Assembly: GCA_903857865.1 (NCBI GenBank)
Contig: CAIOGO010000014.1
Span: 62,001 to 126,000, forward strand
From: an uncultured bacterium
GTDB taxonomy: Bacteria; Bipolaricaulota; Bipolaricaulia; UBA7950; UBA9294
Direction: 5' to 3'
DNA length: 64,000 nt
Made by a program: the position numbers and the translations under genes. Below are positions 6,054 through 34,196 of this stretch, in pieces; the stretch's first letter is position 1; every line of letters begins with the position of its first letter. The notes beneath the pieces are model-generated. The model was not told the origin of the DNA and searched no databases. It saw only the letters and a program-made list of their open reading frames with translations.

Positions 6054-6237
6054 GCCGAGAAGGGGTAGTCCCGGCTCCCCAGTACGCCTTCTCCGCCGGA
6101 CAGCCAAGTGCCAGAACAAGGGGGAGGTCCGATTCGGCCAGACGCCGGCAGCGCGACATGTCGACCTACGTCAGAAGACGAGCCGCGAGCCGGCCGTCGC
6201 GCTCAGCGTTGAGCGCGGAAGAGCGGAGAAGCGAGGA
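6054..6237. repeat. Long direct repeat, copy 1
   Basis: This block, with the landmark AAGTGCCAGAACAAGGGGGA, recurs at 10787-10990 at high identity by eye. Both copies end directly at a REP-like element. The pair brackets the SIR2 insertion and the duplicated genes. Confidence 0.8.
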
Positions 6238-6268
6238 ATGCTGCAGTGCAAGACCAGACCCCACGCCC
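6238..6268. repeat. REP-like element, family A
   Basis: The core is TGCAGTGCAAGACCAGACCC. Related units are at 6333, 6368, 9231, 9378, 10358, 10730 and 10991. The motif resembles the short extragenic elements spread by REP-associated Y1 transposases, but no such transposase gene lies in this window. Confidence 0.65.
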
Positions 6269-6332: not shown

Positions 6333-6392
6333 AAGTGCAGATCTGACCCTCGCGCCGACCTCGTGCCAAGTTAAGACATGACCCTCGCGCCC
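6333..6392. repeat. Two tandem partial REP-like units, family A
   Basis: Two degenerate units (6333-6356 and 6368-6392) each end in TGACCCTCGCGCC. They lie just downstream of the gene ending at 6426 and mark the left edge of the SIR2 insertion. Confidence 0.6.
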
Positions 6393-6425
6393 AAGAGTGT
6401 CAATGCTGTTCTGATCTCAGGTAAT

Positions 6426-7136
6426 CTAGAGGCTCTGCCACTCGATGGCGAATCTGTCGCCCACCTGAGCGTGGCAGGCCACCCATGAGTAGGTCGTCCG
6501 GTCTATGTCCTCGTCGACGATGCGCTCCGGCGGAATCCGCTTAGTCCCGTCTGCCGCCGTGACTTTCGCGGTGGGCTCCTGGGCAAATTCCTTGCGGAGT
6601 CCCACTCCCAAGGAGAAGAAGGAGACCTCAAGCCGAAGCTCGGCTGCTGGGGCAAGGCACTTGTATGCGCTCGATTCCCGGACTCCTGTGCTCATGTCGT
6701 AGAGCCCAGGGAAGCCCCACTCCCATGCGTACCCGATCTCCTCGCCAACATCACACTGCGGGGAGAACTCGAAAAGGACCGCGCGCATCCTCTCTCCGGG
6801 GTCTCCCTCCGTGGGCAGCTCGCTCGCCGCAATTCTCAGTTTCTGGGGTCGTGTGCCGACAAGCCCGTAGTTCATGAAGGACTGCTGTGGGGCTGCCGGC
6901 AGCTTCCGGGCGCACATCTCCTGCACCGAGGGAAGCCGCTGATCCTTGGGGACTGTCGGCGTCAAGCCGAAGTAGTGCACGGCGCCGAGGAACGCAGCGT
7001 CTCCAACTCTGAGAGTCGCATCGAAACGCACATGCCCGTAGCCCGACGGGTAAACCCATGCACGCTTCGCAAGTGACACGAAGCTGTACCGTCGAGCTAT
7101 CTCTACTGGGGACTCTGCCACACTCCCGACAGCCAT
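6426..7136 (-). CDS. Protein of unknown function encoded downstream of the SIR2-like gene
   Basis: I do not recognise this 236-residue protein. It has no signal peptide and no membrane segment and looks soluble, with mixed strands and helices (VYPSGYGHVRFDATLRVGD, then FEFSPQCDVGEEIGYAWEW and a C-terminal VACHAQVGDRFAIEWQ). The start at 7136 is supported by GGGGAGGA four bases upstream. It follows the SIR2-like gene on the same strand after 243 bases, and the two together fill the insertion between REP-like elements, which suggests a functional pair. The pattern could be an effector, an inhibitor or a passenger; nothing in the sequence decides. Confidence 0.6.
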   Translation of the reverse strand: MAVGSVAESPVEIARRYSFVSLAKRAWVYPSGYGHVRFDATLRVGDAAFLGAVHYFGLTPTVPKDQRLPSVQEMCARKLPAAPQQSFMNYGLVGTRPQKLRIAASELPTEGDPGERMRAVLFEFSPQCDVGEEIGYAWEWGFPGLYDMSTGVRESSAYKCLAPAAELRLEVSFFSLGVGLRKEFAQEPTAKVTAADGTKRIPPERIVDEDIDRTTYSWVACHAQVGDRFAIEWQSL

Positions 7137-7379
7137 GTCCTCCCCTCTTCAGACTCCAGGCGTCTCACACCACGCTCGAGAAGGGCGCAAGGTCTTCCTC
7201 TGTTCTCCGGGGTCACGCCGCTCACCCGCTGATGTCTCCGTCGTCACACATGCCGATCGGCCTCCGCTTTCTCTGACTCAAGTCCTCGGCGGCCCCGCGG
7301 GAAGCCGCCCCGTTTCGACGTGCCAAGATCACATTCAATCCCAGTTCCAGCCTCTCGTACGTCCCCGTTTTGACCTCCC
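7137..7379. other. Spacer between the two insertion genes, with a possible small frame
   Basis: A minus-strand frame of about 55 codons (VKTGTYERLELGLNVILARR, ending CDDGDISG) begins right behind the stop of the SIR2-like gene. It has no standard start near a ribosome site, only internal TTG or GTG codons. It may be a small gene, a remnant or chance. Confidence 0.25.
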
Positions 7380-9110
7380 TCAGCCTTCAGTGTCCCCTCG
7401 CCGAGGGGCATTTGTCAACTCGGGCCTGAGGTACGCCGCGAGCACCCCTTCTCCTTCTCTGACTAGTGATGCAACTCTTCGGGTCACCGAGAGTGCCAGC
7501 AAGGCTTCCTCCCGTGTCGGGACATGCCCGTTGTGAACCACGGCGCACCTCGTCCTCCAGGACGCCTCTACCGCACCCATGGCCAGCTCGGAGACGGGAT
7601 CCAAACCTCGCTGGGAAACTAGCCGTCTGATCAAGCGAAGAACAGCGGGGTCCTGACCGGCCTTGCCATCCTCCGGTTGCCTTGCCTCCACATATGCTCT
7701 CCGAACGGCGAGCTCTGCCGCAATCCAGGACTGGGTAACGACCACATCCCAGGCTTCCTCGTCAATGAAGCCATCGCACCGGGAGAAGCGGTCCTGGATC
7801 GTCCCCATGAAGATCTGATCGCTCAAGTATCGGCCGAGATCGGCATCATCGAACGACCTGCGTCGCAGCAGGTCGGTGTAGAAACCGAGGTGTGCTTGAT
7901 CACTGTAGAGAACAACTGCTCGGCAGCGTTCGCCCAGCACGCGAGCAACCACCTCCTCAATCCCTCTCCTTCGACTGTCGATCAGAAAGACGGCACACTC
8001 GCTGTCGCGCAGCAACTCGATATCAAGACTAAGACCCTCGGCTGCAGGGTCGTCCTCATCTGCTCCGCCGAAGTCAATGACCGTGGTTTCCCAGCCCTCT
8101 GCGCGGCACAGCGGCAGGATCTGATCCTGCAGGACTGCCTTTGCCCTGTCCCCGCCCGTCGTGATCACGGGGAGCCTATTTGCGTTCCTCACGGAGGCCT
8201 CGTGGTGACTCTTCCGTTCGTCGGCTGACGGCTGATCGGGGGCTCGCTTCCATCGTAGGTCGGGACACGTTTCCGAGCAGTACCGATACGAGTCAAGCAA
8301 GAACGTGCTGACTGCTTTGGTCTTGTTCGAGCTGATTCTGTCGAGTCGCACGACATGCAGATTGTGTTCGCGCATTAGATCTGTCAGGTCGTCGTCGGGT
8401 TCCTCAAAGAGAACAATGAAACTGGCACGGCGCGCTTGTTGGCCGCGGGCCGCTGCACGGACCTTCGCAAGCTGCAACGCAAAATGGAGGAACACGTCGC
8501 CCAAGCTGTAGCCCAGGAACAAGAAACTGCCTCCGTCCAGGTGCCAAATCAGGTCCTCGTATAGCCCCCTGCATTCTGCCTCTAGACTTGCCGGCTGAAG
8601 CCTCGGCGTTGTAGCACGCATTGTAGGTCTCAGGTCGCGGTCGCCGCAGAGTTTCAGGATCATCGTGCGCCAGCGGAGCTTCCAGTAGTAGTACTGGTCA
8701 TCTGTCGCAACTTCGATATAGTCTCCGCCGCCAGCGCGCCCTAGAAGCTGATCGTAGTTTGTTGTGTAGATCCGGACCCACCTAAAGGCCATTAGCCGCT
8801 CATGCACCAGTCCGGGCTTGTCTTGGGAAGGCAAGATCCTGTCGCATATCTGGTCATGGAGCGAGTCTGGGCCGTCTTTATCTGCGACGCGATCCGTAAC
8901 CCGCAACGGGTTCGACCGCGCGATTTCGCGTGTCAGTCGGTGGGAGTCCGGAAGCTCCGCGTTGAGCTTGTCAGCTAGCTCAAAGAACAGCGGGTATCGA
9001 TCGGAGGCGCACTTCGAGAACCCCGCTCCAAGGAATGGAATCACGGTTCCATGGCATATTGCATCCAGAAGCTCGGGTCCGTATTCCTTCAGCCGCTGAG
9101 AAAGCTCCAC
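7380..9110 (-). CDS. SIR2-like protein with Rossmann-like middle and HEPN-like C-terminal regions
   Basis: This 576-residue protein has three regions. Residues about 15-270 match bacterial SIR2-like domains that degrade NAD in anti-phage defence: VIPFLGAGFS (23-32), TTNYDQLL (116-123) with the conserved Asn, and SFLFLGYSLGD (195-205). The residue that is normally the catalytic His of the LHGD motif is Cys here (LKLCGD, about 152-157), which may change or abolish activity. Residues about 312-405 look like a Rossmann-type nucleotide-binding region (VITTGGDRAKAV, then CAVFLIDSRR and RAVVLYSDQ). Residues about 455-565 are helical and contain RCAVVH (521-526), fitting the RX4-6H ribonuclease motif of HEPN domains. 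It is encoded upstream of an unknown 236-residue protein, and the pair sits between REP-like elements. A defence role is inferred from the SIR2 domain and the mobile-looking context. The middle and C-terminal assignments are by eye only. Confidence 0.7.
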   Translation of the reverse strand: MELSQRLKEYGPELLDAICHGTVIPFLGAGFSKCASDRYPLFFELADKLNAELPDSHRLTREIARSNPLRVTDRVADKDGPDSLHDQICDRILPSQDKPGLVHERLMAFRWVRIYTTNYDQLLGRAGGGDYIEVATDDQYYYWKLRWRTMILKLCGDRDLRPTMRATTPRLQPASLEAECRGLYEDLIWHLDGGSFLFLGYSLGDVFLHFALQLAKVRAAARGQQARRASFIVLFEEPDDDLTDLMREHNLHVVRLDRISSNKTKAVSTFLLDSYRYCSETCPDLRWKRAPDQPSADERKSHHEASVRNANRLPVITTGGDRAKAVLQDQILPLCRAEGWETTVIDFGGADEDDPAAEGLSLDIELLRDSECAVFLIDSRRRGIEEVVARVLGERCRAVVLYSDQAHLGFYTDLLRRRSFDDADLGRYLSDQIFMGTIQDRFSRCDGFIDEEAWDVVVTQSWIAAELAVRRAYVEARQPEDGKAGQDPAVLRLIRRLVSQRGLDPVSELAMGAVEASWRTRCAVVHNGHVPTREEALLALSVTRRVASLVREGEGVLAAYLRPELTNAPRRGDTEG

Positions 9111-9230
9111 AGCACCTACTGTATGTTGTGCAGTGCCTTCGTGTCAAGACAACTCCCCAACGAGAACCGCTCCGCACACCTAGAACTGACCTTCCCCTGG
9201 TGGACTGGCCGATTCTCAAGCAAGCTGGAC

Positions 9231-9296
9231 TCCAATGCCGGAGTACAAGGCGCGACTCCATCGCCCGTGGCGCGAGCACATCGGGATCGTGTCCCC
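9231..9296. repeat. Degenerate REP-like elements (families A and B)
   Basis: A degenerate A unit (CCAATGCCGGAGTACAAGGC, 9231-9266) is followed by the right half of a B unit (TCGGGATCGTGTCCCC, 9281-9296). They mark the right edge of the SIR2 insertion. Confidence 0.45.
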
Positions 9297-9315: not shown

Positions 9316-9591
9316 CTACGTCGCACCATCATGGCGCTCCCCAGCGCCATCCACCGAGCCAATGGGATCTAGCAGAATCCAATGCTGGAATGCAAGACCA
9401 GACCCTCGCGCCCTAGCTGCCGCGACTTCGGGGGTTGCGGCAGCCGCCGTCGGCGTCGTGGTTGCCGGTGTCTTGGTCGTTGACGTTGCGGTCGCCGGCG
9501 AGCTCGTGGTCTTTCGCTCCGACGTGCACGCAACGACGGTGAGAAGTAGCAGCAACGCCATGACTGCAACGATCCAGGTCTTCCGTTTCAT
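9316..9591 (-). pseudogene. Truncated copy of the lipoprotein gene
   Basis: Codons 1-60 repeat the start of the lipoprotein at 3888-5354, including MKRKTWIVAVMALLLLLTVV, the lipobox Cys and the first Thr/Ala-rich residues, and the region just upstream. Similarity stops at 9413. There the frame runs straight into a REP-like element and then unrelated sequence, giving a 91-residue hybrid ending GAGERHDGAT. It could still be exported as a small lipoprotein, but it lacks the folded C-terminal domain and is best read as a broken duplicate. Confidence 0.8.
9378..9412. repeat. REP-like element A at the lipoprotein truncation point
   Basis: AATGCTGGAATGCAAGACCA, then GACCCTCGCGCC, abuts the first base of duplicated lipoprotein sequence at 9413. 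Confidence 0.75.
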
Positions 9592-9675
9592 CCCAGCCCC
9601 CTGTTCCGTTCTCCGATGCAGAAAACAGACGGCCCCACTCTAGCGGGAGAGCGGCGCCACGGGCAACGACCCGTC

Positions 9676-9729
9676 GGGGACACAATCCCGATTTGTGGCC
9701 ACGCAGCCAGCGAATTGCGGAGTGTGTCC
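9676..9729. repeat. REP-like element, family B
   Basis: This is an imperfect inverted repeat, GGGGACACAATCCCGATT against GAATTGCGGAGTGTGTCC, between the truncated lipoprotein and PNPOx copy 2. The right half is also present in copy 1 near 5487-5505. Confidence 0.6.
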
Positions 9730-9763
9730 TAGCTTGGTGCACGAGAGCCGTCTGTGTACCGGT

Positions 9764-10183: not shown

Positions 10184-10250
10184 ATCGGCGCCATCCTACG
10201 CGCCGCCTTCCACCCGAACAACCAGTCGGGGGTCTGCGAGCGGGCCGATC

Positions 10251-10305
10251 GGGGACACAACCCGATTCGCAACGATCCGGTCGGCGAATCGGGGATTGTG
10301 TCCCC
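10251..10305. repeat. REP-like element, family B, near-perfect dyad
   Basis: GGGGACACAACCCGATTCGC pairs with GCGAATCGGGGATTGTGTCCCC across a 13-base loop. It is the best preserved of the B elements. Confidence 0.75.
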
Positions 10306-10325
10306 CACCCCGCATGGCGCCCCCG

Positions 10326-10604
10326 TCATCGTCCATCGGGCCAAGAAGATGCAATAGAATCCAGTGCTGGAATGCAAGACCGAACCCCGTCGGCTTTCTT
10401 CGCGTCCCAGTACGCGAGCTCGACCGAGCGTCCCGCCACCAGTTGCTGGTGCACGTCCTTCTGAACGCCCGTGCAGAACACGAGCCCCGCCGGCTCCACG
10501 AGCGCCGTCTGCATCGCCCGCACGCGCGGCTTGCCACGGTCCACCGTCGCCATGAACGCCACCGGATTCGCCTTCACGAACGCGAGGACTTCGTCTCTGG
10601 TCAT
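10326..10604 (-). pseudogene. Truncated third copy of the PNPOx-like gene
   Basis: Codons 1-69 match the start of the other two copies (MTRDEVLAFVKANPVAFMAT through ELAYWDAKK). Homology ends at 10396, exactly where a REP-like element begins. The frame then reads ADGVRSCIPALDSIASSWPD from repeat sequence and stops. The C-terminal half of the split barrel is missing, so the product should not fold normally. Confidence 0.85.
10358..10394. repeat. REP-like element A at the PNPOx copy 3 truncation point
   Basis: ATCCAGTGCTGGAATGCAAG, then ACCGAACCCCGTC, sits directly beside the first base of truncated PNPOx sequence at 10396. This is the same arrangement as at 9378-9413. Confidence 0.75.
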
Positions 10605-10618
10605 AGTGGCGCCATCCT
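10396..10618. repeat. Duplicated segment, copy 3 (partial)
   Basis: It matches the 5' half of the PNPOx-like gene and about 14 bases upstream. It is closer to copy 1 in the coding part and to copy 2 just upstream of the start. Confidence 0.8.
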
Positions 10619-10668
10619 ATGCGCCTCCCCGCGCGGGGACAACCCGCCCGGACTCCGCAGGAAGTCTT

Positions 10669-10759
10669 GGGACACAACCCCAATTCACGGCCATGCATTC
10701 GGCGGATTGGGGATTGTGTCCCCCGCTTCGATGCTGGAATGGAGGACTCGACCCCGTCA
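10669..10759. repeat. REP-like element B followed by a degenerate element A
   Basis: GGGACACAACCCCAATTC pairs with GGATTGGGGATTGTGTCCC (10669-10724). A degenerate A unit (ATGCTGGAATGGAGGACTCG) follows within 10730-10759. Confidence 0.65.
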
Positions 10760-11076: not shown

Positions 11077-13869
11077 TCACGCCAGCAGGCCCGTCTCACC
11101 TTCATGGCCCTGTCCCGCAAGCTCTCGGACCATCTTCTCGAGCGAGCTCCAGCGGTCGCGTTTCAGAGTGAAGTCGCTCTGATTCACTCGGATGAATCGC
11201 CAGTGCTCGCCGGACGCCTTGGTGACCTGGTCACACCAGTGGGCCATGGCGGCGTCCTTCACGAGGGTGTCTTCCCAGACGCGGCCCTTGGTCTCGATGA
11301 TCCAGTGGGTCTCCTTACCCTTGACGCGCTGCACGGCAGCGAAGTCGGGGTAGTAGAAGCCGATGGCGCCGCTCGGCTTGAGATAGTCGATCTTGAAGGC
11401 TACGCCGCTTTCGCTCTCAGTTGTCCCTAGGGAGGCGAAGCGCACGACATCATCGAGACCATCAAGGAACTGGGCGAACTGCTTCTCGTAGTCGTTGAAG
11501 GTCGCAACGCAGTTGAAGATGGTCTTCTCGCACTCGAGCAGGGGTAGGTTCCGCCGCCAGGTGAAGGTCTTGGCCTCGGACAGTCGGAGAGCCGCGCTCT
11601 CGAGTTCAACGGGCTTCCGCTCCGTCGCGAGCGCACCGACGTACCTGCCAAGGAGCTTCGCGATCGCAGCCTGCGTTGGCGCGCTACATAGGTGCCAGCG
11701 GACGCGCTCATCCTCGAGGTTCACCTCTCTGCCGAAGCACCGCTCGCGTAGGTAGGCGCGCACCTTGGGGTAGAGCTTATCGAACCCACTCGGAAGGTTC
11801 GCCTCGCGCATCACCTTGCTGCATATCGATGACACGAGAGCCTGCGAGAACGGCAGCGGACCAGACCCGATATCGGTCCTGTGTACTTCGGTCTCCGTCG
11901 TGGCGAACTCCATCATGAGTTCGATCCGCTTAGGTTCACTGAGTAGCTCCCCTTCGCTGTAGATCGCACCAATCGCCGATGGGTCGAATTCCTCAAGCCG
12001 GGTGTAGTTGCGCGAGTAGATCGTCTTGGTTCTGGGGAAGACGATGTCGAACTGCGCCTTGTCCGCTACCGGGAAGACCTTGGCCGGCGGCGCGGGCGGC
12101 GTTGACACAGTCTTGATGCCGACGCCTTCTTTCTCGAGTTGGCGCACGAAGTCCTCAAACGCTTCCGTGCCCATGACCTCAAGGGTCTGGGTGCGATCGG
12201 GGCTGATCCCGGACATGAGCCGCAGTCCTCGCCCGACAGCCTGCTCGGGCAGTATCTTCGACTTGGCGGTGAAGGGTCGGAGGCCAAGAGCGACGGTCAC
12301 GTTCTTGACATCCCACCCTTCGCGCAGCATCAGCACGCTGACGATGACCTTCACCTTGTTGCCCGGCAGGTCGATGTCCCGCGCAGCCTGTCGCGCCTTC
12401 TCGAGGTCGCTCTCCCTGACATCGCCCTCGTTGTCGGTGTGGATGACTAGGACCTCATTCTTGCCGAGTCCGGCTCCGGCCGCCTCGACAAGCCATTGCC
12501 CGATGGCATCAGCAAAGACGTTCTTCTCGGCCATGATGAACAGGACCGGCTTCTGTCCTAGGTCGCTGTACGTCTGGTAGTGAACGCGCCAGCGCGCCAA
12601 CGCGGCAAGGAGCCACTCCTGGTAGGCCTCCACGACGTTGTCCTTGGTGACTTCGTCGGGATCTTCGCGCTTCACGCGATGCACGATCAGCGGCGCTTTG
12701 ACGATGCGGTCTTCCACCGCCTGCGCCAGTGGGTAGTCGCAGATGTTCCACGGGAAGTACGTCCCGTTCTGATCTTTCGGCGTCGCTGAGAAGTCGAGCC
12801 AATGGGAGAGACCGCCCGTGATGGCCCCGTGAAGCTCCGTGAGCGCCTTGTGCCACTCGAGCTCGGGCTCGTGGATGTGGTGCGCCTCGTCGTTGAGCAC
12901 GCAGAGGTTCGGGCAGGACTTGATCCGGTCCATGACGGGGCGCCGGCGCAAACTCAGGTCCTTGACCGGCGTCGGACCGAGCACGCGGTCGACGGGGTTC
13001 ACCGGCCGCCACTCGGCGGACCGCGCCGCGTAGAGCTGCTGGACGTTCGTGAGGAAGAGCGTGCCTGCCGTGTCCGGCTCGTTGGCGTCGTCGCGCAGGA
13101 TCACCTTCATGCTCCAGCGCGACTTCCATTCGGGCGGGATGAGCGGCAGCTCGTAGAACATCTTGTTGCTGGCGAAGTCCTTCTCCAGCCGCTGGTAGAC
13201 GATGACGTTCGGCGCCACGACGAGGAAGTTCGCCGCGAGGTCCGAACCTTCAGTCAGCTTGCGGTGGAAGTAGGACCAGACGATGGCCATGGCCATCACG
13301 AGCGTCTTCCCCGAACCCGTGGCCATCTTCAACGCGTAGCGCCGCAGGTTCTGCTCGGGTAGCTCCTGCGTCTGCTCGCCCTCGACCTCCGGGATGTACC
13401 GCACGACCCGGCGCCTGCCGTCCATGGCGGTCTCGAAGCGCAGGTCGTCTCCCTCGAGTCGCTTCTGCGAGCCATCGGGGTAGAAGACCTCGCCGAACGA
13501 GCGGATGAGGTCGACAGCGTCGAGGTTCTGCTCGACCTCCGTGAGGTAGATCAAGGTCTCGATGGCCTCTTGCTGCCCGAAGTAGTAGCGCCACAGCTTG
13601 CCGTCGACCTCGTGGTCCTCGCTGAACCAGAAGGTGAGCAGCCGGTGGGTCGCTGCAGAGACGCCAGGATAGTCGGCATCGCGCCAGACGCGCACGGCTT
13701 GCCGAAGCTGATTCACCAGGATGAGGCGACTCGGGCGGCGCCCGTCGACGACCTCGAAGTCCTCCTTCTTGCCCGGCTTCTTGCGCAGGTAGCGGTCTGG
13801 TTCTCGGTAGGCCGAGTGCTCCGGGATCTCCGGTAGATCCTTGTCGTAGGAGATGACGGCTTCGGCCAT
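11077..13869 (-). CDS. Type III-style restriction helicase-endonuclease (Res-like)
   Basis: This 930-residue superfamily 2 helicase has Walker A ATGSGKT (about 183-189), a DEAH-type box LNDEAHH, FSATP, and QAVGRGLR (motif VI). The C-terminus has a PD-(D/E)XK nuclease signature, YYPDFAAV followed by WIIETKGR. This is the layout of Res subunits, which cut DNA only together with their Mod methyltransferase after ATP-driven movement. The start at ATG 13869 was chosen because the methyltransferase stop lies 2 bases upstream. The same frame is open well upstream of this ATG, but that part only overlaps the methyltransferase. It is the last gene of the operon. Confidence 0.88.
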   Translation of the reverse strand: MAEAVISYDKDLPEIPEHSAYREPDRYLRKKPGKKEDFEVVDGRRPSRLILVNQLRQAVRVWRDADYPGVSAATHRLLTFWFSEDHEVDGKLWRYYFGQQEAIETLIYLTEVEQNLDAVDLIRSFGEVFYPDGSQKRLEGDDLRFETAMDGRRRVVRYIPEVEGEQTQELPEQNLRRYALKMATGSGKTLVMAMAIVWSYFHRKLTEGSDLAANFLVVAPNVIVYQRLEKDFASNKMFYELPLIPPEWKSRWSMKVILRDDANEPDTAGTLFLTNVQQLYAARSAEWRPVNPVDRVLGPTPVKDLSLRRRPVMDRIKSCPNLCVLNDEAHHIHEPELEWHKALTELHGAITGGLSHWLDFSATPKDQNGTYFPWNICDYPLAQAVEDRIVKAPLIVHRVKREDPDEVTKDNVVEAYQEWLLAALARWRVHYQTYSDLGQKPVLFIMAEKNVFADAIGQWLVEAAGAGLGKNEVLVIHTDNEGDVRESDLEKARQAARDIDLPGNKVKVIVSVLMLREGWDVKNVTVALGLRPFTAKSKILPEQAVGRGLRLMSGISPDRTQTLEVMGTEAFEDFVRQLEKEGVGIKTVSTPPAPPAKVFPVADKAQFDIVFPRTKTIYSRNYTRLEEFDPSAIGAIYSEGELLSEPKRIELMMEFATTETEVHRTDIGSGPLPFSQALVSSICSKVMREANLPSGFDKLYPKVRAYLRERCFGREVNLEDERVRWHLCSAPTQAAIAKLLGRYVGALATERKPVELESAALRLSEAKTFTWRRNLPLLECEKTIFNCVATFNDYEKQFAQFLDGLDDVVRFASLGTTESESGVAFKIDYLKPSGAIGFYYPDFAAVQRVKGKETHWIIETKGRVWEDTLVKDAAMAHWCDQVTKASGEHWRFIRVNQSDFTLKRDRWSSLEKMVRELAGQGHEGETGLLA

Positions 13870-13871
13870 CG

Positions 13872-15830
13872 CTACACCTCCACGGGGAAGACCTGTGTCG
13901 TGTCGTTCCCGAAGATGTCCACGACCTTGACCATGACGTTCGCCGGCGCGTGTCGCTCGTACTCGTGGACGTCCGACTCTAGAGAGAGCGCGCGGTCCTT
14001 CCTCGTACGGTAGGCGACCCACCCCTGCATGAACGTGTCGTTCTGGAAGTCCCAGTCGATTGCCCAGTAGTCGACGTAGTCGGACCACTTGGTGATCTTG
14101 TCCCGCACATCCTCGGGGATGAGGTCGGCATACGGGAACGCGAAGTCGGTCAGCTTGACCTGCAGCTTCCGCTCGCCCGCCTTCTTGATGCTGACTTCGA
14201 CGTGAGCGAGCTCGAAGAAGCGAACGTCGCCCTTCTCCACGGCTTGCTCCTCCATCACCTCGTGCGGAATCGCTAGAAGCAGGAGCTTCACGTCCCGGCG
14301 CCTCGCCTCGTCGACGATGTACGGCGTCATCCCCATCTCCCACTCCCAACCGAGGATGTGAAGTTCCTTCTGCTTCACAGCAAGGCACTCCTCGATGGCA
14401 CCGTTCACTTCGTCGATGGTCACCGGCGTGTCCACGGCACCGACGTGGACCACGGCTTTGCCCTTCTTCCCGTGCAGATGTTGTGTGCCCGAGAGCGGCT
14501 GTGCGCCGTAGAGTTTCAGGATGAACGCCAGATACTCGTAGATGGTCAACTCCTCGTCACTCTTTCGCGCTGCGAACGTCACACCAGCCCAGTAGGTTCG
14601 TTCGTACTTCCCCAGATTGAGCACTTCAAAGGGTTTGCAGTCTTCAATCCCAAGCATGCGCTTGCGCGTAACGTGCATCGCCCAGCGACCGAGATCACAC
14701 CCAATCCAGCGGCGGTCAAGCTTCTCTGCAGCAGCAAGCGTGGTGCCCGAACCGCAGAAGAAGTCGGCGACCAGCGCATCCTCGTCGGAGAACGCACGAA
14801 TCACCCTCGTGAGCAGCGGCTCCGGCTTCTGCGTGGCGTAGCCGGTCTGCTCAGCTTCCGGCATGTGCATGGCGTCTGCGATGTCGACCCACGAGTCTCC
14901 CACCGGAACCCGTTCAACGACCTTTCCGCCCTCGACTGGGAGGAAATACTTGATCCGAATGCCGCCAGTCCGTGTCTTGTGGATGCGTCCCTCTGCCTCG
15001 AGACGCGCAATGCTTTCGTCGGTATAGTCACCTCGCGGTGCGGTCTTGAACCAGCGACCCTCTCCGTCTTGGCGGAACCCTCTCTGTCGCGCTTCCTCAA
15101 TCGAGAACGCGCGAGTGACGAAATCGCCGTTGAAAGTCCAGCCATCGCCTGAGCGGTAGCAGAGCAGGTCGTCATGATTACGAGGGAACTGGGAAGCGAC
15201 TGCTTTGGCGCCCCTAGCCGACTCCCCGTAGACCCAAACGACGCTGTTTAGAAACGCGTCGATCCCGAAGCACTCGTCGAGGAGCATGCGCACTCGGTGT
15301 GCCATTCGCCAATCGCAGTGGATCACGATTATGCCGGTTTGCGACAAGAGCTCCCGCATCAGGACCAGTCGGTCCCGCAGCATAGCGAGGAAGCTCTCGA
15401 TCCCTGCCCCCCACGTGTCGTGATATGCCTTCTCCTCTATCGCTGATGGCGCTTTGGTGATCTCCTCGCCAGACTCCCCGATCTCGGTCGTGAACGAGAA
15501 GTCCGCCCCCGTAGCGAATGGCGGGTCGATGTAGATGAGGTCGATCTTCCCGGCGAACTTCTCGAGCAGCGATCCCATCACCAGCAGGTTGTCGCCCCAG
15601 ATGAGTTTGTTCTTCCAGCCATCCTCGAAGGTGTCGCCTTCCTTGCCGTCGTAGACATCGAAGAGACCTACACCCTTCGTCTTCTTTGCCTCCCGAGAGC
15701 CGCGACTCTCGTTGACGGTTTCGATGACCTGGAACGGCAGCCGGACCCGCGGCACTTCCTTCAGCGTCCCATCGTCGTTGTACTTGCCTGGCCAGACCAG
15801 CTCGACCTTGTTCACTTCGATCTTTGCCAC
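13872..15830 (-). CDS. Type III-style DNA methyltransferase (Mod-like)
   Basis: This 652-residue beta-class amino-methyltransferase has motif IV first (IDPPFATGADF, about residue 105) and the SAM-binding motif I late (VADFFCGSGTTLAAA, about 370). The region between, about 260 residues, would hold the target recognition domain. It methylates adenine (less likely cytosine N4) in a short asymmetric site, protecting DNA from the Res-like protein encoded 2 bases downstream. The start ATG 15830 lies 21 bases after the upstream helicase stop. The C-terminal 250 residues (MTPYIVDEARRRDVKLLLLA and beyond) are unusually long and may contact Res. Confidence 0.88.
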   Translation of the reverse strand: MAKIEVNKVELVWPGKYNDDGTLKEVPRVRLPFQVIETVNESRGSREAKKTKGVGLFDVYDGKEGDTFEDGWKNKLIWGDNLLVMGSLLEKFAGKIDLIYIDPPFATGADFSFTTEIGESGEEITKAPSAIEEKAYHDTWGAGIESFLAMLRDRLVLMRELLSQTGIIVIHCDWRMAHRVRMLLDECFGIDAFLNSVVWVYGESARGAKAVASQFPRNHDDLLCYRSGDGWTFNGDFVTRAFSIEEARQRGFRQDGEGRWFKTAPRGDYTDESIARLEAEGRIHKTRTGGIRIKYFLPVEGGKVVERVPVGDSWVDIADAMHMPEAEQTGYATQKPEPLLTRVIRAFSDEDALVADFFCGSGTTLAAAEKLDRRWIGCDLGRWAMHVTRKRMLGIEDCKPFEVLNLGKYERTYWAGVTFAARKSDEELTIYEYLAFILKLYGAQPLSGTQHLHGKKGKAVVHVGAVDTPVTIDEVNGAIEECLAVKQKELHILGWEWEMGMTPYIVDEARRRDVKLLLLAIPHEVMEEQAVEKGDVRFFELAHVEVSIKKAGERKLQVKLTDFAFPYADLIPEDVRDKITKWSDYVDYWAIDWDFQNDTFMQGWVAYRTRKDRALSLESDVHEYERHAPANVMVKVVDIFGNDTTQVFPVEV

Positions 15831-15851
15831 CTGGTTCCTCCAATCTCCCTG

Positions 15852-18626
15852 CTAGGCGTGACCCGACGCCGCGCGGCAGCTCGAGCACAGCCCCGTGAAG
15901 TCGCACTCCGCGCATGCACTCAGCGTCGGCGTCGCATCCAGTTTGCCCGCGCGAAGTGATTCCGCAGCGCTGCGCACGGATGTGCGCACGTCCTCGATGA
16001 AGTCCTCGTCCACCGAGCGAGGCTTCCGCTTCTGCTCCTCCAGCTCGTAGATCTCCACGTAGTCTGCGTTCCGGCCAGTCAGCTCCCTGTACCCGAGCGC
16101 GTAGATGTGCAGCTGCATCTCCGTGACCTCTTCCGCTTGGGAACGCTCGGCGGTCTTGAGGTCGACGATCGTGACCTCGCCCGTGTCCTTGCGTCGGACG
16201 AGGTCGACGCGGCCGACAACGGAGACGCCGTCGCCCAAGTTCAGCTCGATCGTCTGCTCAGAGAACTCGATCTTGTCGAAGTCGGCCTTGTTCTTGGCGA
16301 TGTACCCGCCGATCACGGCCTTCGCGTTCGCGGCCAACGTGTCCTTGAGCGCTGGATAGGCGAAGGGCACATGCAAGTGGGTAGCGACGAGACGCTCCGC
16401 GTCCGCCTCACTGCACGGCTTCTTCTCGAGGGCTGCCTTGTGAACCTCGGCCAGCGCGTCGTGGAGGCTCTTCCCGTAGCCGAGGGCTTCGTGAATAGGT
16501 GGGTTGAAGCCGTAGAGGATGCGAAGCTTGAACTGGTACGGACACTCGAAGAAGTACTTCAGGTCGCTGAACGTCAGGACGACATTCTGCACTCCCGTTT
16601 TCGACCTGGAAGGAGCGCGCCGCCGCCCAGCATAGCTCTGCCTGTGCCGCTTCATGTACTTCGACGCGAGGACGTCTTCCCAAAACTCCGAACGCTTCTG
16701 GTACAGCTGGTTCCCTAGCACCGGCGCCCATGTCAGGAAGAGGAACTTCTGGCTCCGGGTCAGCGCGACGTAGAAGAGCCGCCGCTCGTCTTCCACTCCG
16801 CCAACGAAGCGCTCCTGCCCCAGGACACTCGCCGCCGGGACAAGGTGCCAGACGGTCTTCCCTTTCGACTTCGAAGCCGGAAAGCGATTCCGCAAGAGCG
16901 CGGGAACGAAGACCACGGGCCACTCCATACCCTTCGCTTGGTGCACGGTCATGACGCGCACTGCGTCGGGGTTGGCGTACTGGCTGTCCTGCCAGCCTTC
17001 AGGGTAGGCGTCCGCCGCCTGGTGCTGAAGGAAGGAGGCGAAGCTCTCGTACTTCTGCTTTGGCTCGGAGTGGAAGTGGATCTGCTCGAAGTCGGAGATG
17101 ACCTGGCTGAACTTCCCCAGGTTGTAGAAGACCACTTCGCCACGCTTGCTGCCGTCCAGGCCGTCCGGTACCGCCTCTTCGCGGAGGCCGACGTTCTCAA
17201 GGAACTCGCGGTACTGGCGCTGAAGTGAGTACGCAGACCATCGTGCTTCCGCCTTCTCGCCCATTCCCGCTCTCACGCGCTCGAGCTCGTCGATGGCCCG
17301 ATCTACCGCGGCGGCATCCACGCCCAGGTTGGCCGATAGCCAGCTCGCCTTCAGGGAATCCCTGCCGCAGTCCTCGACTCCGGCCATGAACAGGAAGATG
17401 GCTCTCGCTGCCTCGGCCTCGGGTGCCCCGAACAAGTCGTTCATGCCGATGACGAGGGTCGGAATCCCCGCTGCACGCAGTGCCGCGATGATCGGTGCCC
17501 CGTTCCGTCTGACGCTCCGGAGAAGGACGGCGAAGTCGGACCAAGCCAGCCCGCGCTCGCCGGCAGCCTCGGAGATCGCTACGCCGTGAAGCTCTCGGAT
17601 CGTGTCGACGATGTACTGCGCTTCGTCCTCCGGGGTCTCGAAGGAGAGAGCCACGATGTCCCCCGGTTCGTAGGCACGAACCTCGGTCGGGATCATGGCC
17701 TTTGCGAGGCGCTCGGTGTTCTGCGCGATGAAGTCCCGGGCTGTCTCGACAACCCCGGGACTACTCCGGAAGTTCTCCTGAAGGCGTATCGGCTCGACGG
17801 GACTGTAGCGCTTCTCAAACGTAAGGATGTTGTCGATGTCGCTTCCGCGCCACTGGTAGATCGTCTGGTCGTCATCTCCTACGACGCACACCTCGGCCCC
17901 GCCTTTGTGCAGAAGGCGGATGATGCACTCCTGGATCGGGTTCACGTCCTGGTACTCGTCGCAGATCACGTACCGTACCCGCCCGCAGACTCTTGCCCTA
18001 AGCTCATCGTCGTCCGCCAGCGCTTCCACGGCGCGCTGCATGATGCTCGAGTAGTCGAAGTAGCATCTCTCGTCGAGCAGGTTCGCGTACTCTCGCAGCC
18101 CCTCCACGACGGAGCAGCCGACCAGCTCCGCCTCCACGAGCCGGGCCTCGCGCAGGATGTTGAGAGCCTCGATGTACCGCCCGGTGTCCACCCACCGCTT
18201 CAGCGGGTCTCCCTTCAGGTCCGTGGATGTGGTCAGGCCGCACTGCTTTGAGTGCCGATCCACGAAGAGCACCTGCTGGACTTCATTGAGTACGCCGCAC
18301 TTGAGGAAGCGGAGCGCCTCCGTGCGCAGCAGGTCAAGGCAGAAGCCGTGGATCGTGCCGACGTACATCTCGGCCATGCCGACAACGTCCCCGGCAGCCT
18401 CGCGCACCCGGGTGACGATCCGGTCCTTCAGCTCCCCCGCTGCCTTGTCCGTAAAGGTGAAGGCGACGATGTTCCGCGGGGCTAGGCCGGACTGCTTCGG
18501 GTCGGCCAGCAGCGCTGCGACGCGCTGTGCGACGACCTCTGTCTTCCCCGAGCCTGCGCAAGCGATGAGCTGCAGGTTGGAGCCTCGATGGCCGATTGCC
18601 TTCTTCTGCGCTTCGGTCAGCTTCAG
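15852..18626 (-). CDS. UvrD/RecB-type helicase fused to PD-(D/E)XK nuclease with Cys cluster
   Basis: This superfamily 1 helicase of about 924 residues has CAGSGKTEVV (Walker A, near residue 25), VVGDDDQTIYQWRGSD (motif III region) and MTVHQAKGMEWPVV (motif V). The C-terminal 250 residues are a RecB/AddB-type nuclease: VTIVDLKTAE and QLHIYALGY are the active-site and Q motifs. One Cys in FECPYQFKL plus CAECDFTGLC resembles the AddB iron-sulfur cluster. It should unwind and degrade DNA ends. The likely start is CTG at 18626, placed 7 bases after GGAGG and overlapping the RadC stop as CTGA; the frame upstream has no homologous look. It stands as gene two of a four-gene restriction operon. Confidence 0.85.
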   Translation of the reverse strand: MKLTEAQKKAIGHRGSNLQLIACAGSGKTEVVAQRVAALLADPKQSGLAPRNIVAFTFTDKAAGELKDRIVTRVREAAGDVVGMAEMYVGTIHGFCLDLLRTEALRFLKCGVLNEVQQVLFVDRHSKQCGLTTSTDLKGDPLKRWVDTGRYIEALNILREARLVEAELVGCSVVEGLREYANLLDERCYFDYSSIMQRAVEALADDDELRARVCGRVRYVICDEYQDVNPIQECIIRLLHKGGAEVCVVGDDDQTIYQWRGSDIDNILTFEKRYSPVEPIRLQENFRSSPGVVETARDFIAQNTERLAKAMIPTEVRAYEPGDIVALSFETPEDEAQYIVDTIRELHGVAISEAAGERGLAWSDFAVLLRSVRRNGAPIIAALRAAGIPTLVIGMNDLFGAPEAEAARAIFLFMAGVEDCGRDSLKASWLSANLGVDAAAVDRAIDELERVRAGMGEKAEARWSAYSLQRQYREFLENVGLREEAVPDGLDGSKRGEVVFYNLGKFSQVISDFEQIHFHSEPKQKYESFASFLQHQAADAYPEGWQDSQYANPDAVRVMTVHQAKGMEWPVVFVPALLRNRFPASKSKGKTVWHLVPAASVLGQERFVGGVEDERRLFYVALTRSQKFLFLTWAPVLGNQLYQKRSEFWEDVLASKYMKRHRQSYAGRRRAPSRSKTGVQNVVLTFSDLKYFFECPYQFKLRILYGFNPPIHEALGYGKSLHDALAEVHKAALEKKPCSEADAERLVATHLHVPFAYPALKDTLAANAKAVIGGYIAKNKADFDKIEFSEQTIELNLGDGVSVVGRVDLVRRKDTGEVTIVDLKTAERSQAEEVTEMQLHIYALGYRELTGRNADYVEIYELEEQKRKPRSVDEDFIEDVRTSVRSAAESLRAGKLDATPTLSACAECDFTGLCSSCRAASGHA

Positions 18627-19312
18627 AGCAAGCCCTCCTCGCGAAAGCTGAAGACCTCGTCGGGTGCCACGATCAGATGATCGTACACCTCCACCTGGAT
18701 CGCCTCGCACGCCAGAACGACGGCCCGGGTGACGAGTCTATCGTGCTCGCTCGGTTGCGCACTGCCCACGGTGTGGTTGTGTGCGAGCACGACAGCCACA
18801 GCCTCGCGGCGCAAGGCGCCTTCGGCGACTCGCCGCGGATACACGACGGCGCGGTCGGGAGTCCCCACTTGCAGAGTCTCGACACCATCCCGAAGCAACC
18901 GATGCTCGCCGTCGAGGTAGCATACCTCGAACACCTCGTGCCCGAGCGCGCCCAACCTCAGACGACAGAAGGGAGCCAGCGCTTCGAGAGTCGACAGGTC
19001 CTGGCGAGTCTCGGCTGACTGCTGTAGGTAGAGACCAGCAGAGGCGCGGATCACTTTGAGAGACGTCGACGCGACCGGGCCAATCCCCGCGACGCGCTCG
19101 AGTTCGGCCATCTGTGCATCTAGGATCCCCCGCAGACTCCCGAACCGAGCAAGCAGAGCCTTCGCAGGCACCTTAACGTCGCACCGAGGAATGGCCAGGG
19201 TGAGTAGCAGCTCAACGATCTCATGCTCCGCGAACCCGTCCAGCCCGCTCTTGCGGAAACGCTCACGCAAGCGCTCCCGATGCCCGTGAAAGTGGGGAGT
19301 CTCCCCTTGCAT
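18623..19312 (-). CDS. RadC-family JAMM-domain protein in a restriction operon
   Basis: This protein of about 229 residues has an N-terminal helix-hairpin-helix region (RVAGIGPVASTSLKVIRAS) and a C-terminal MPN/JAMM domain with VVLAHNHTVGSAQPSEHD, the HxH...S..D metal site. RadC proteins are widespread; the activity is uncertain, and many are carried by mobile or defence islands. The start MQGETPHFHG at 19312 was chosen because it begins the conserved part; the frame is open to 19408. It is the first gene of the operon and overlaps the helicase start. A second, separate RadC is at 34608-35333. Confidence 0.85.
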   Translation of the reverse strand: MQGETPHFHGHRERLRERFRKSGLDGFAEHEIVELLLTLAIPRCDVKVPAKALLARFGSLRGILDAQMAELERVAGIGPVASTSLKVIRASAGLYLQQSAETRQDLSTLEALAPFCRLRLGALGHEVFEVCYLDGEHRLLRDGVETLQVGTPDRAVVYPRRVAEGALRREAVAVVLAHNHTVGSAQPSEHDRLVTRAVVLACEAIQVEVYDHLIVAPDEVFSFREEGLL

Positions 19313-20205: not shown

Positions 20206-21348
20206 GTGCCTCAGCCGGGGGAGTGGATCAAGAGTCAAGAAGGGTACTCTGCCTTCGTTCCCAACCCGTTGCCGCCAGCGCTCGAGTGGACGCGGGAGAT
20301 CGTCCACGCGCTCTCGGACGCGGATCGCGCAATCGGCCGCCTGGCCGGGGAAGGTCGCGGCCTGCCGAACCCGCATATCCTCATTCGCCCCTTCGTTGCC
20401 CGAGAGGCCGTGCTCTCCAGTCGAATCGAGGGCACGCAGGCCACACTTGGCGAACTGCTCGCTGCCGAGGCCGGCGCCATTGTCGATCGGAGCCCCGAAG
20501 ACCTGCGCGAGGTTGCGAACTACGTCGTCGCCCTTGAGCACGGGATCGATCGGTTGCCAGCTCTCGGCCTCTCCGTGCCACTCCTGAAGGAAGTTCACGC
20601 TCTCCTGATGCGCGAGGTGCGCGGCGGCCGCGCTCAACCCGGGAGGGTTCGCACGATTCAGAACTGGATTGGCCTCCCTGGTTCGACCCCGCACACGGCG
20701 GTGTACGTTCCGCCGCCGCCGGCACGCGTCCCCGCACTTCTGCGCGACTTGGAAGGATTCCTGCAGGATCGCTCTCTCCCTCCACTCGTTCAGGCCGCGC
20801 TTGCACACGTCCAGTTTGAGGCGATTCACCCGTTCCTTGATGGGAACGGCCGCGTCGGTCGGCTGCTCATCAGCCTCTTCCTCGTGGACAGCGGGATTCT
20901 CTCGTCTCCGCTCCTCTACCTGAGTGCGTTCTTCGAGGCGACCCGCTCCGACTACTACACGCGCTTGCGCGAAGTCACGAGCGCGGGAGACTGGGCGAAC
21001 TGGCTTGTCTACTTCCTCAACGGCGTCGCACGGCAATCGGAGGACGCTGTCGACCGCGCGGCGCGCATGCGAGATCAGCTCTCCGCATGGCAGGCGGAAC
21101 TCCGCGGCACAGGTTCGGACACTCCTGCGCGCGTCCTGGATCTGCTTGTGGGGAACCCCTTCGTCACCGCGAAGTACGTGTCGGATCGCCTCGGCGTTGC
21201 GCGAACGTCGGCCACACGCGCGATTTCCGTCCTGGTAGACCGCAGCATTCTGTCTCCCGTGGATTCGCGGCAGCGCGACCGCGCATACTGCGCGAATGCC
21301 CTCTTGAGCATCCTCGAAGAGCCCGCACGACTGATCGCGGGGCCATAG
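20206..21348 (+). CDS. Fic family protein with N-terminal inhibitory helix and winged-helix tail
   Basis: Fic enzymes usually transfer AMP from ATP to hydroxyl groups of target proteins. This 380-residue protein has the complete active site [12 protein letters not shown] (about residue 207), with the catalytic His. The N-terminal SSRIEGT fits the (S/T)xxxE(G/N) inhibitory motif, so activity is self-restrained (class II). The last 100 residues look like a winged helix ([20 protein letters not shown]), as in many bacterial Fic proteins that regulate their own gene. The GTG start at 20206 has AGGAGGGG upstream. The gene stands alone and converges on the PKD gene. Confidence 0.9.
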
Positions 21349-30275: not shown

Positions 30276-33200
30276 CTAGCGGAGTTGGATCGCCTGTCGA
30301 TACACCGCCCGCAGCTGTGCTGCGTTCTCCAGAGTCACGCTGAGAACGTTCGTTGGCTGCGTCTCGGAGGTCAGCTGGATGAGGATGTCGTCCCACGCCT
30401 CCGTCGCTGCGTTGTAGCGCTGCCACTTCCAGAACACGAGCTTCACTTGCTCCCGCGTCCAGTACTCGCTCGCCGCCTGGAGAACGTAGGTGATGCCCGG
30501 CGTCCCACACAGGCGGAACGGCGTGTCCTGCGGCTTGTCCCGACCCACGCTGATGGGCGCAGTCAGCGGGTCGGTCGCAAACTCGGGTACGGCCGCCGTC
30601 ACGAGAGGAATGCGCTGGTACATCAGCACGGACGAGACCTCCATGCATGCCTGCGTGACCCTCGTCCCGGGTGTGAACGTGAAGCCCTTCTGCGCATACA
30701 CCGCGCGATACTGCGCGTCAGGTTCGAGGACCACAACGATCGCGGTCTCCGTGGAGATTGCCTCCCACGCGCCCGTTGCGGCGCTGAGTTTCTCCCAGCG
30801 GGCGAACGGGGAAGGATCGGAACCGGCCGCCCCGGCCGTCGCCGCGGCCTGCAGCATGAACTTCATGCCCGCAGCGTCGCAGACCTGGAATGGAGTGACC
30901 CGCTCCTCGGCGTACCCAACAACGATCGTTGCCGAGATCTCCGCCATGCGCGTCCCAAGGAACAGGAAGACAGACGATTCCTGCACCGCGGAGATGCTCG
31001 TGCAGGCGCGCGCCACTTGCTCCGGCTCTGACGTGCGACCCGTCGACATCGTCACCAGGAGCCGCACCACCGCGCACTGGCGGGAGTCGAGGAACTCGAA
31101 GGTCGCGTAGTAGCTCATGCCGGCAGTGAAGGTCCCGCTCACGATGCCCTTCCGCCCTTCGAGGTCGATCGAGACGCTCGCCCCCGCCGGAAGGTTGTCT
31201 CCGGATGGGATTGCGCCCACGATCGCATACGCACTCAAGCGCTGCATGACGTCACTGGGAATGGATTGGCTCCCGTTGAAGGACATGCCGCTCGGGACCT
31301 CTCCAAAGTCCCAACTGAGTTCCTCCGCCTTCCCGCAACCCGTGGGCGTCGTCCCGGGGACTCCGGGCTGTTCTTGTCCACAGGGCGGGCATGGCCCCGT
31401 CCCGGCCTGCTGACAGACCGGAGTGAGGCAGTCTGGGTCGATGAATGACTGAATAGACGTCTGGACGTTCGGAACGACCTCCACCGACGTGCGGGCCGTC
31501 GCTTCAGCGTTGGCGGCCGCGCTGGCCATGGCGTACGCCTGCGCCAGAGCCTCGGCCGTCGCTTCGGCGGCCACGACAGCACTCGCGTTCGCCTCGGCCG
31601 CCGCGGACGCCGACGCCGTCGCGTCTGCCATAGCCAGCGCCAACACCTCGGCCGAGACCGACGCGCTGGCCTGCACTTCCGCGATCGTCTGGGCGGCGGC
31701 AAAGGCTGCGACCTGCGCACTCGCCTCGGCCGCGGCCGCCGCACCCGCATACGCCGACGCCTCGGCGAAGGCATCTGCTGCCGCCCGCACGGCCACGGCC
31801 ACCGCAGCGTTCGCCGCGGCCACCGCGCTCGCCGCGGCGTACGCGGCTGCCTCCGCATCGGCTTGGGCAAGGGCGATCGCCCCGACACCCGTGCGCGCAG
31901 CGGCCTCCGCATTGGCGTATGCCCATGCAGCCGCGTGTGCGTCCGCTTCTGCGGTCGCCTGTGCGCTCGCCAGCGCGTCCACGCCTACCGCAACCTGTGT
32001 CCACGCGTCCGCTTCGGCTCGAGCCGCCGCACGAGCGGACGCTCCGGCCTCCGCCAGCGCACTGGCCAACGATTCGGCTTCGGCTCGTGCCGTGGCTTCA
32101 GCCTGTGCTCTTGCTTCGGCCGCGGCCAGAGCGCTCGCTTGAGCGTCCCCGACGGCCCCGCACAAGGATTGCGAGCCCGTCGCCGCCGCCGCGTATGCGT
32201 TCGCGTATGCCGCAGACGCCGCCCCCAGCGCCGCTTGCGCTCGCGCCGCGGCCGCAGCGGCCGCCTGTGCGTGCGCGAACGCCTCGGACGACGAGGTCGC
32301 CACGGCAGCCGCGAACGTCTGGGAATAGGCTTCTCCCGTACCCGCAGCTGACGCGGTTGCCTCGGCGCTCGACGCTGCACTGGCCGTCGCCTCGGCGCAC
32401 GCTGTCGCCGACGCTTGTGCCTCAGCGGCTGCCGCCGCGCACGCTCCTGCCTGAGCCTGCGCCTCGGCCACCGCAGCTGCAATCGCCGCCGCCTGGGCGG
32501 CCGCCGCCGCTTGCGCGGAGCCATAGGCCGTCGCCGCCGCGGTTGCGCTGGCCGTCGCCTCGCTGGCTGCGGTCGCGTACGCGCTTGCAGCAGCGCTCGC
32601 TGCGGCCTGGGCACGCGCACACGCACTCGCTGCAGCGGCCGCGCCGGCGGATGCTGCCGCCTGCGACTCGGCCACTGCGGATGCCATTGCTTGCGCGACG
32701 GCGCTTGCCTGGGCGCACGCTTGCGCGATGGCCTCGGAATACGATTGAGCCGAAGCCGTGGCGCGTGCAACGGCTTCGGCCATGGCCTCCGCATGGGCGA
32801 ATGCCGCCGCGCACGCCTGCGCAACTGCCGTCGCCTCAGCCTCAGCCGAGCTCTTCGCGACCGCGATCGCGGACGCCGCAGCTCGCGCCGCGGCCTGAGC
32901 CTGCGCTGCTGCCACCGCGATCGCCCCCGCACGAGCCTCCGCTTCCGCGTGCGCTTGGGCGATGGCCGCTGCCGCCGCAAAGGCCTCCGCCTTCGCAGAC
33001 GCCTGGGCCTGTGCGATGGCCTGTGCTGCAGCTTCCGCGCGGCTGTACGCGACGGCCGCTGCGTCCGCCTGGGCCTGCGCGCGCGCGTGCGCCGAGGCAG
33101 CCGCCTCCGCATGCGCGCTCGCGCTCGCCGAGGCCAGCGCTGCGGCCTGCGCCGCCGCCTTCGCCGCTGCGTCCGCCTGAGCAACTGCGGTCGCAATCGC

Positions 33201-34193: not shown

Positions 34194-34196
34194 CAC

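Follow-up and report, generated by a model that had tools for sequence, protein, structure and literature searches.

In accounts of abortive infection, SIR2, TIR and HEPN domains usually figure as alternative executioners, and no description of all three in a single protein was found in the literature searched. Several characterized systems provide points of reference for such a combination, in particular DSR2, in which replacement of the catalytic histidine of the SIR2 domain (H171A) eliminates the NADase activity (PMC11290490), and the HEPN families, among which DUF4145 has been classed (PMC3710099). Here, we analyze a protein, P0001, encoded in a 64,000-nucleotide stretch of DNA (hereafter, the window), together with its small neighbor, P0002. 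The balance of the evidence tips slightly toward P0001 being a single-gene defense protein of the abortive-infection type, highly divergent and probably acquired by horizontal transfer, with the layout SIR2 - TIR/NDT-like - HEPN-like. This reading draws directly on the domain order, the homology of the individual parts, the residue changes in the active sites and the defense neighborhood, all of which are documented below.

The gene and its three domains

The initial annotation recognized two minus-strand genes, for proteins of 576 aa (P0001) and 236 aa (P0002), and both stand as described (Table 1), each showing coding-like codon-position composition in its stated minus-strand frame. P0001 occurs in a single copy in its own genome and is absent from the other 99 of the 100 genomes of the phylum that were searched. 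Full-length relatives were not recovered among phages, plasmids, viral contigs or genome contigs in a single-sequence search, a BFVD search yielded nothing at E<0.001, and Pfam, PADLOC, PHROGs and NCBIfam contain no model matching the whole protein. The GC3 of P0001 is 0.67, compared to 0.73-0.89 in the other recognized genes sampled in the window, and this low value suggests recent acquisition. The promoter-like site upstream ends 7 bases before the GTG codon, so that the transcript of P0001 may be leaderless.

Table 1. Coordinates, within the window, of the genes, predicted domains and repeats of the insert and its borders.
Feature	Position	Strand	Remarks
Left copy of the duplicated segment	5171..6261		PNPOx (pyridoxamine-oxidase-like) gene, lipoprotein 5' end and DNA downstream
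Border direct repeat, left	6237..6268
P0002, 236-aa ORFan	6426..7136	minus	ATG start, GGGGAGGA upstream
P0001, 576-aa SIR2 - TIR/NDT-like - HEPN-like protein	7380..9110	minus	GTG start
HEPN-like four-helix domain, residues about 451-551	7458..7760	minus	R521-X4-H526, Glu466
TIR/NDT-like alpha/beta domain, residues about 312-437	7800..8177	minus	AlphaFold model, profile comparison
SIR2-like domain, residues 1-284	8259..9110	minus	GAG 28-30, TTNYD 116-120, Cys155 replacing His
Sigma-70-like promoter TTGACA-18-TACAGT	9118..9147	minus	consensus match only; just 5' of the P0001 GTG
Border direct repeat, right	9381..9413
Right copy of the duplicated segment	9408..11014		also carries a further, partial PNPOx copy and hairpin repeats

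The SIR2-like N-terminus is confirmed by a match to Pfam PF13289 (E=1.9e-10) and by the retrieval of KomC with phmmer (1.9e-10); in the fold comparison, KomC and DSR2 align with the SIR2 part at a Z of about 20, with an rmsd of 3.1-4.0 over about 252-271 residues. The residues of the NAD pocket are kept, namely, G28 and G30 of the GAG motif, the catalytic asparagine N118, and D120. Cys155 aligns with H146 of KomC, that is, with the catalytic-His column, which also holds the DSR2 histidine that is required for activity; hence, the suggestion in the initial annotation that this cysteine alters or abolishes the SIR2 chemistry is well founded. Among the 79 other SIR2 domains sampled, this column contains His (50/79) or Asn (29/79) and never Cys, leaving P0001 alone among the 80. 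The sequences with Asn form a class in which the usual HG motif is replaced by HxNG (29 loci, e.g., L051, L057 and L072, mostly in proteins >800 aa), with a histidine at the position -2, where P0001 has a lysine. The TExxY region that follows the HG motif is not conserved in P0001, and its SIR2 branch is extremely long (2.93 changes per column). For the SIR2 domain of P0001, which lacks the catalytic histidine, a role in NAD binding, assembly or regulation is more likely than NAD hydrolysis. Hydrolysis of the usual type by this domain is improbable, judging from the residue changes and from the behavior of DSR2, and the TIR-like or the HEPN-like part would be the likelier effector.

The two remaining domains were delineated on an AlphaFold model of moderate quality (mean pLDDT 59) built from a shallow alignment. 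The middle part, which was initially taken to be Rossmann-like, is indeed an alpha/beta domain in this model, with predicted strands at 312-317, 341-346, 374-378 and 398-403 separated by helices (low to moderate confidence); however, it resembles TIR/NDT domains rather than a generic Rossmann fold. Its match to an NDT/TIR-like profile attained a score that was reached by 1 of 2000 shuffled sequences. At the start of the helix after the third strand, E385/E386 lie near the TIR/NDT glutamate, a position where the alignments differ. The C-terminal part is modeled as four helices (451-475, 488-500, 508-527 and 533-551; likewise low to moderate confidence), and contains an RX4-6H motif, R521-C-A-V-V-H526, that aligns with the RNxxxH of the relatives described below; the residue after the arginine is Cys522 rather than a polar N/D/H. 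Two of the three catalytic sites of P0001 are thus altered, with Cys155 in place of the SIR2 histidine and Cys522 in place of the polar HEPN residue.

Direct searches with the second half of P0001 gave no matches in Pfam, PADLOC, PHROGs, NCBIfam or PDB; when PDB was queried with the C-terminal half, its family profile or the middle domain of a relative, only chance matches were returned. The fold search listed SIR2 matches only, with the SIR2 part aligned, so that the absence of HEPN and TIR chains from it carries no weight. When compared to a profile of the five-member family introduced below, the C-terminal half of P0001, as well as its HEPN part alone, attained scores that were reached by 0 of 2000 shuffled sequences in each case, an improvement over a weaker test of the C-terminus with a three-member profile, in which the score of the real sequence was attained by 2 of 1000 shuffled ones. 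The HEPN-like assignment, already put forward in the initial annotation on the strength of the RX4H motif, is supported by this homology.

A rare family with the same layout

The same three-part architecture recurs elsewhere. An alignment scan of genome contigs based on the SIR2 domain identified 74 SIR2 loci, 3 of which (L035, L067 and the truncated L049, all from Clostridia) continue into a TIR/NDT-like domain, with the C-terminal motif RNDIVH or RNKIIH in L035 and L067. With L067 as the query, a full-length member, L087, was found on an Agrobacterium plasmid. A further member, L086, from a Bradyrhizobium plasmid (5950-7700), is broken up by frameshifts, its pieces being annotated as three separate genes, and L088 and L097 come from a Bradyrhizobium genome and another genome of its family. 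We define the family by the single genes with the SIR2-TIR/NDT-HEPN layout, L035, L067, L087, L088 and L097, from Clostridia and Rhizobiales. Searches in further sets of 391, 198, 289 and 400 genomes added L097 as the sole new member, indicating that the three-domain family is rare. The scan also yielded another fusion, in which SIR2 is followed by a C-terminus resembling HAD phosphatases (VFDFGGTLT), in L009 (7995-9866) and L010 (7917-9863), from Thalassobius and Mesoflavibacter.

The active sites of the family are largely intact, with both SIR2 residues (Asn and His) and the RNxxxH motif retained, and a glutamate at or near the TIR/NDT position in most members. The C-termini match HEPN families of Pfam weakly, below the cut-offs (DUF4145, 0.0014; HEPN_RiboL-PSP, 1.6e-4), and the middle domains show weak matches to TIR_2, DUF4062 and a PADLOC TIR effector. 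The middle domain is also matched by stand-alone proteins of streptococcal and staphylococcal phages carrying the signature NPNxFYELG, one of which matches nucleoside deoxyribosyltransferase at 0.0017.

P0001 and the family share the domain order, their parts are collinear, and homology is detectable in the C-terminal half. Phylogenetic analysis, however, placed the SIR2 domain of P0001 outside the SIR2 clade of the family (AU p=0.007, with the caveat of the long branch), so that the two layouts may have arisen separately. Thus, the layout is common to P0001 and the family, and the parts are homologous, whereas the case for common descent of the whole proteins falls short.

The family members are stand-alone genes and, like P0001, occupy variable places: L087 lies near a multiubiquitin-ThiF operon and VapC, L086 near a relaxase, and L097 adjoins a gene for a GMP-synthase-like protein.

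The insert, its flanks and the defense neighborhood

P0001 and P0002 are the sole genes within an insert that is bordered on both sides by a 33-bp direct repeat (88% identity). On either side of the insert, a duplicated segment of about 1 kb is present in direct orientation, the copies being 88-94% identical over the long blocks. In relatives, the segment is found without the SIR2 cassette, as far as the short stretches compared extend. The two full PNPOx-like genes of the segment copies differ at 30 bases, with 19 synonymous changes and 10 amino-acid codon changes, and a partial third copy of the PNPOx-like segment is located at 10396-10620. The description of the cassette as REP-flanked is therefore largely wrong, given that the flanks are segment copies and the hairpins lie mainly on one side: the hairpin repeat GGGGATTGTGTCCCC has two exact copies, at 10291 and 10709, both on the right, with weaker ones at 9282 and 9676, and no copy to the left of the cassette. 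A genome-wide REP family was considered and rejected, with 6 matches to the pattern close to GGGGATTGTGTCCCC (<=2 mismatches) in the 2.24-Mb genome. The same flank contains long near-perfect hairpins at 9660-9745, 10240-10310 and 10655-10728 (-35 to -40 kcal/mol), with the core GGGGACACAA...TTGTGTCCCC; few of these are present genome-wide.

The genes around the cassette encode type III Mod and Res proteins (the methyltransferase matches MTase_III at E=1.6e-124), a UvrD-PD-(D/E)XK protein, RadC, SoFic, and MazF-like and HicA proteins; the Fic protein (window 20206-21348) is a near full-length match to PADLOC SoFic (E=5.3e-114). Judged by these neighbor genes, in particular those for type III R-M, the UvrD-nuclease and SoFic, P0001 resides in a defense island, in agreement with the defense role that was initially proposed. 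Within the stretch 11077-18710, the type III-like Mod/Res genes adjoin that of a UvrD helicase which also contains a PD-(D/E)XK/Cas4-like nuclease domain, followed by RadC, and these genes possibly form one defense operon. Farther away, at 30276-34196, the window encodes a 1306-aa protein with a very long, repetitive, Ala/Ser-rich region.

P0002, initially noted as a partner of no recognized family, proved to be an ORFan: searches of Pfam, PADLOC, PHROGs, NCBIfam, plasmids, phages and viral contigs retrieved nothing, PDB gave only chance matches, and the 100 genomes of the phylum contained no convincing relative. Weak matches in three relatives (E 0.003-0.006), to different stretches of 40-70 residues, were dismissed as chance. 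The single-sequence structure prediction (pLDDT 30) is unusable.

Possible function and comparison with known systems

The activation of P0001, its enzymatic activity and its role in phage defense are inferred. In the mechanism that we propose, infection would switch P0001 on, probably by making it assemble via its SIR2 part in the manner of ThsA, Avs5 and KomC, for which filament structures are available. The toxic step would then be cleavage of NAD or nucleotides by the TIR-like domain, cleavage of RNA by the HEPN-like domain, or both, and the cell would be stopped before phage release. A more specific and rather unlikely version holds that the proteins of this class combine a HEPN RNase with two different NAD-glycohydrolase modules, one SIR2 and one TIR-like, and that, in the lineage of P0001, the His to Cys replacement turned the SIR2 domain into an NAD sensor or assembly platform gating the TIR-like and HEPN effectors.

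The altered active sites can be read differently. P0001 could be an acquired defense gene in decay, non-working and with active sites no longer under constraint, an explanation that we consider rather improbable. The changes in two of the three catalytic motifs, the extreme SIR2 branch length, the unconserved TExxY region, and the single copy that is missing from the other genomes of the phylum all fit such decay, but the 576 codons remain open with a coding-like composition, the consensus promoter is in place, and G28, G30, N118 and D120, along with the HEPN arginine and histidine, have been retained. Retention of the other residues of the catalytic pocket is also compatible with the SIR2 domain still functioning as an NADase that relies on Cys155 or a different residue, the HEPN part being a second effector, and the catalytic position can change, as in the Asn class, where a histidine lies two residues earlier. 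However, the cysteine, found in none of the other sampled sequences, the lysine at the position -2 and the loss of NADase activity upon replacement of the equivalent histidine of DSR2 by alanine make this explanation very unlikely.

The initial annotation further proposed a new two-gene defense system, in which P0002 could serve as a sensor, activator or antitoxin. The two genes lie alone inside one insert, on the same strand, 243 bp apart, with a good ribosome-binding site for P0002; no terminator-like site was found between them, so that co-transcription is possible. Yet the family members occur alone, and the co-occurrence check detected no relative of P0002 beside any of them (for L088 and L097, within the roughly 1.5 kb of flanking sequence covered) or anywhere else searched, leaving the two-gene system unsupported and, in our assessment, quite improbable. 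P0002 is best explained as cargo, either accessory to P0001 or unrelated to it.

The presence of three modules in one chain, in a family that ranges from Clostridia to rhizobial plasmids, would allow a direct test of whether such modules work one after the other (sensor, NAD cleavage, RNA cleavage) or are redundant effectors. P0001, in which the SIR2 histidine is replaced, would provide a natural experiment on the module that is required.

Among the known systems, DSR2 has a SIR2 domain of the same fold and is the best NCBIfam and PADLOC match of P0001, in the SIR2 part only; unlike P0001, it exceeds 1000 aa, retains the catalytic histidine, and does not match in the remainder. Against the DSR2 model NF041819, P0001 scores 36.7 bits, over residues 26-126 only, well below the cut-off of 1400 bits. 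KomC, the Kongming SIR2 NADase, is the closest solved SIR2 by sequence and among the top ones by fold, but consists of SIR2 only and has His146 at the position of Cys155. ThsA of Thoeris (SIR2-SLOG) shares with P0001 both the SIR2 fold and the succession of SIR2 and an alpha/beta domain in one protein; however, the middle domain of P0001 is more similar to TIR/NDT than to SLOG (Pfam gave no SLOG match, and the fold search aligned the SIR2 part only), the adjacent genes showed no ThsB, and P0001 has the extra HEPN-like domain. The Swarozyc/DUF4062 TIR-like NADases belong to the same TIR/NDT superfamily as the middle domain, as suggested by weak profile matches of the relatives (PMC13174449), with DUF4062 in L067 below the threshold (E=0.034-0.056); they differ in the accessory domains, and DUF4062 is not matched in P0001 itself. 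Finally, the HEPN abortive-infection proteins (DUF4145, HEPN_RiboL-PSP and ApeA type) share with P0001 the RX4H motif in a helical domain, whereas in P0001 the usual polar residue is replaced by C522 and the HEPN-like domain is fused to SIR2 and TIR-like domains.
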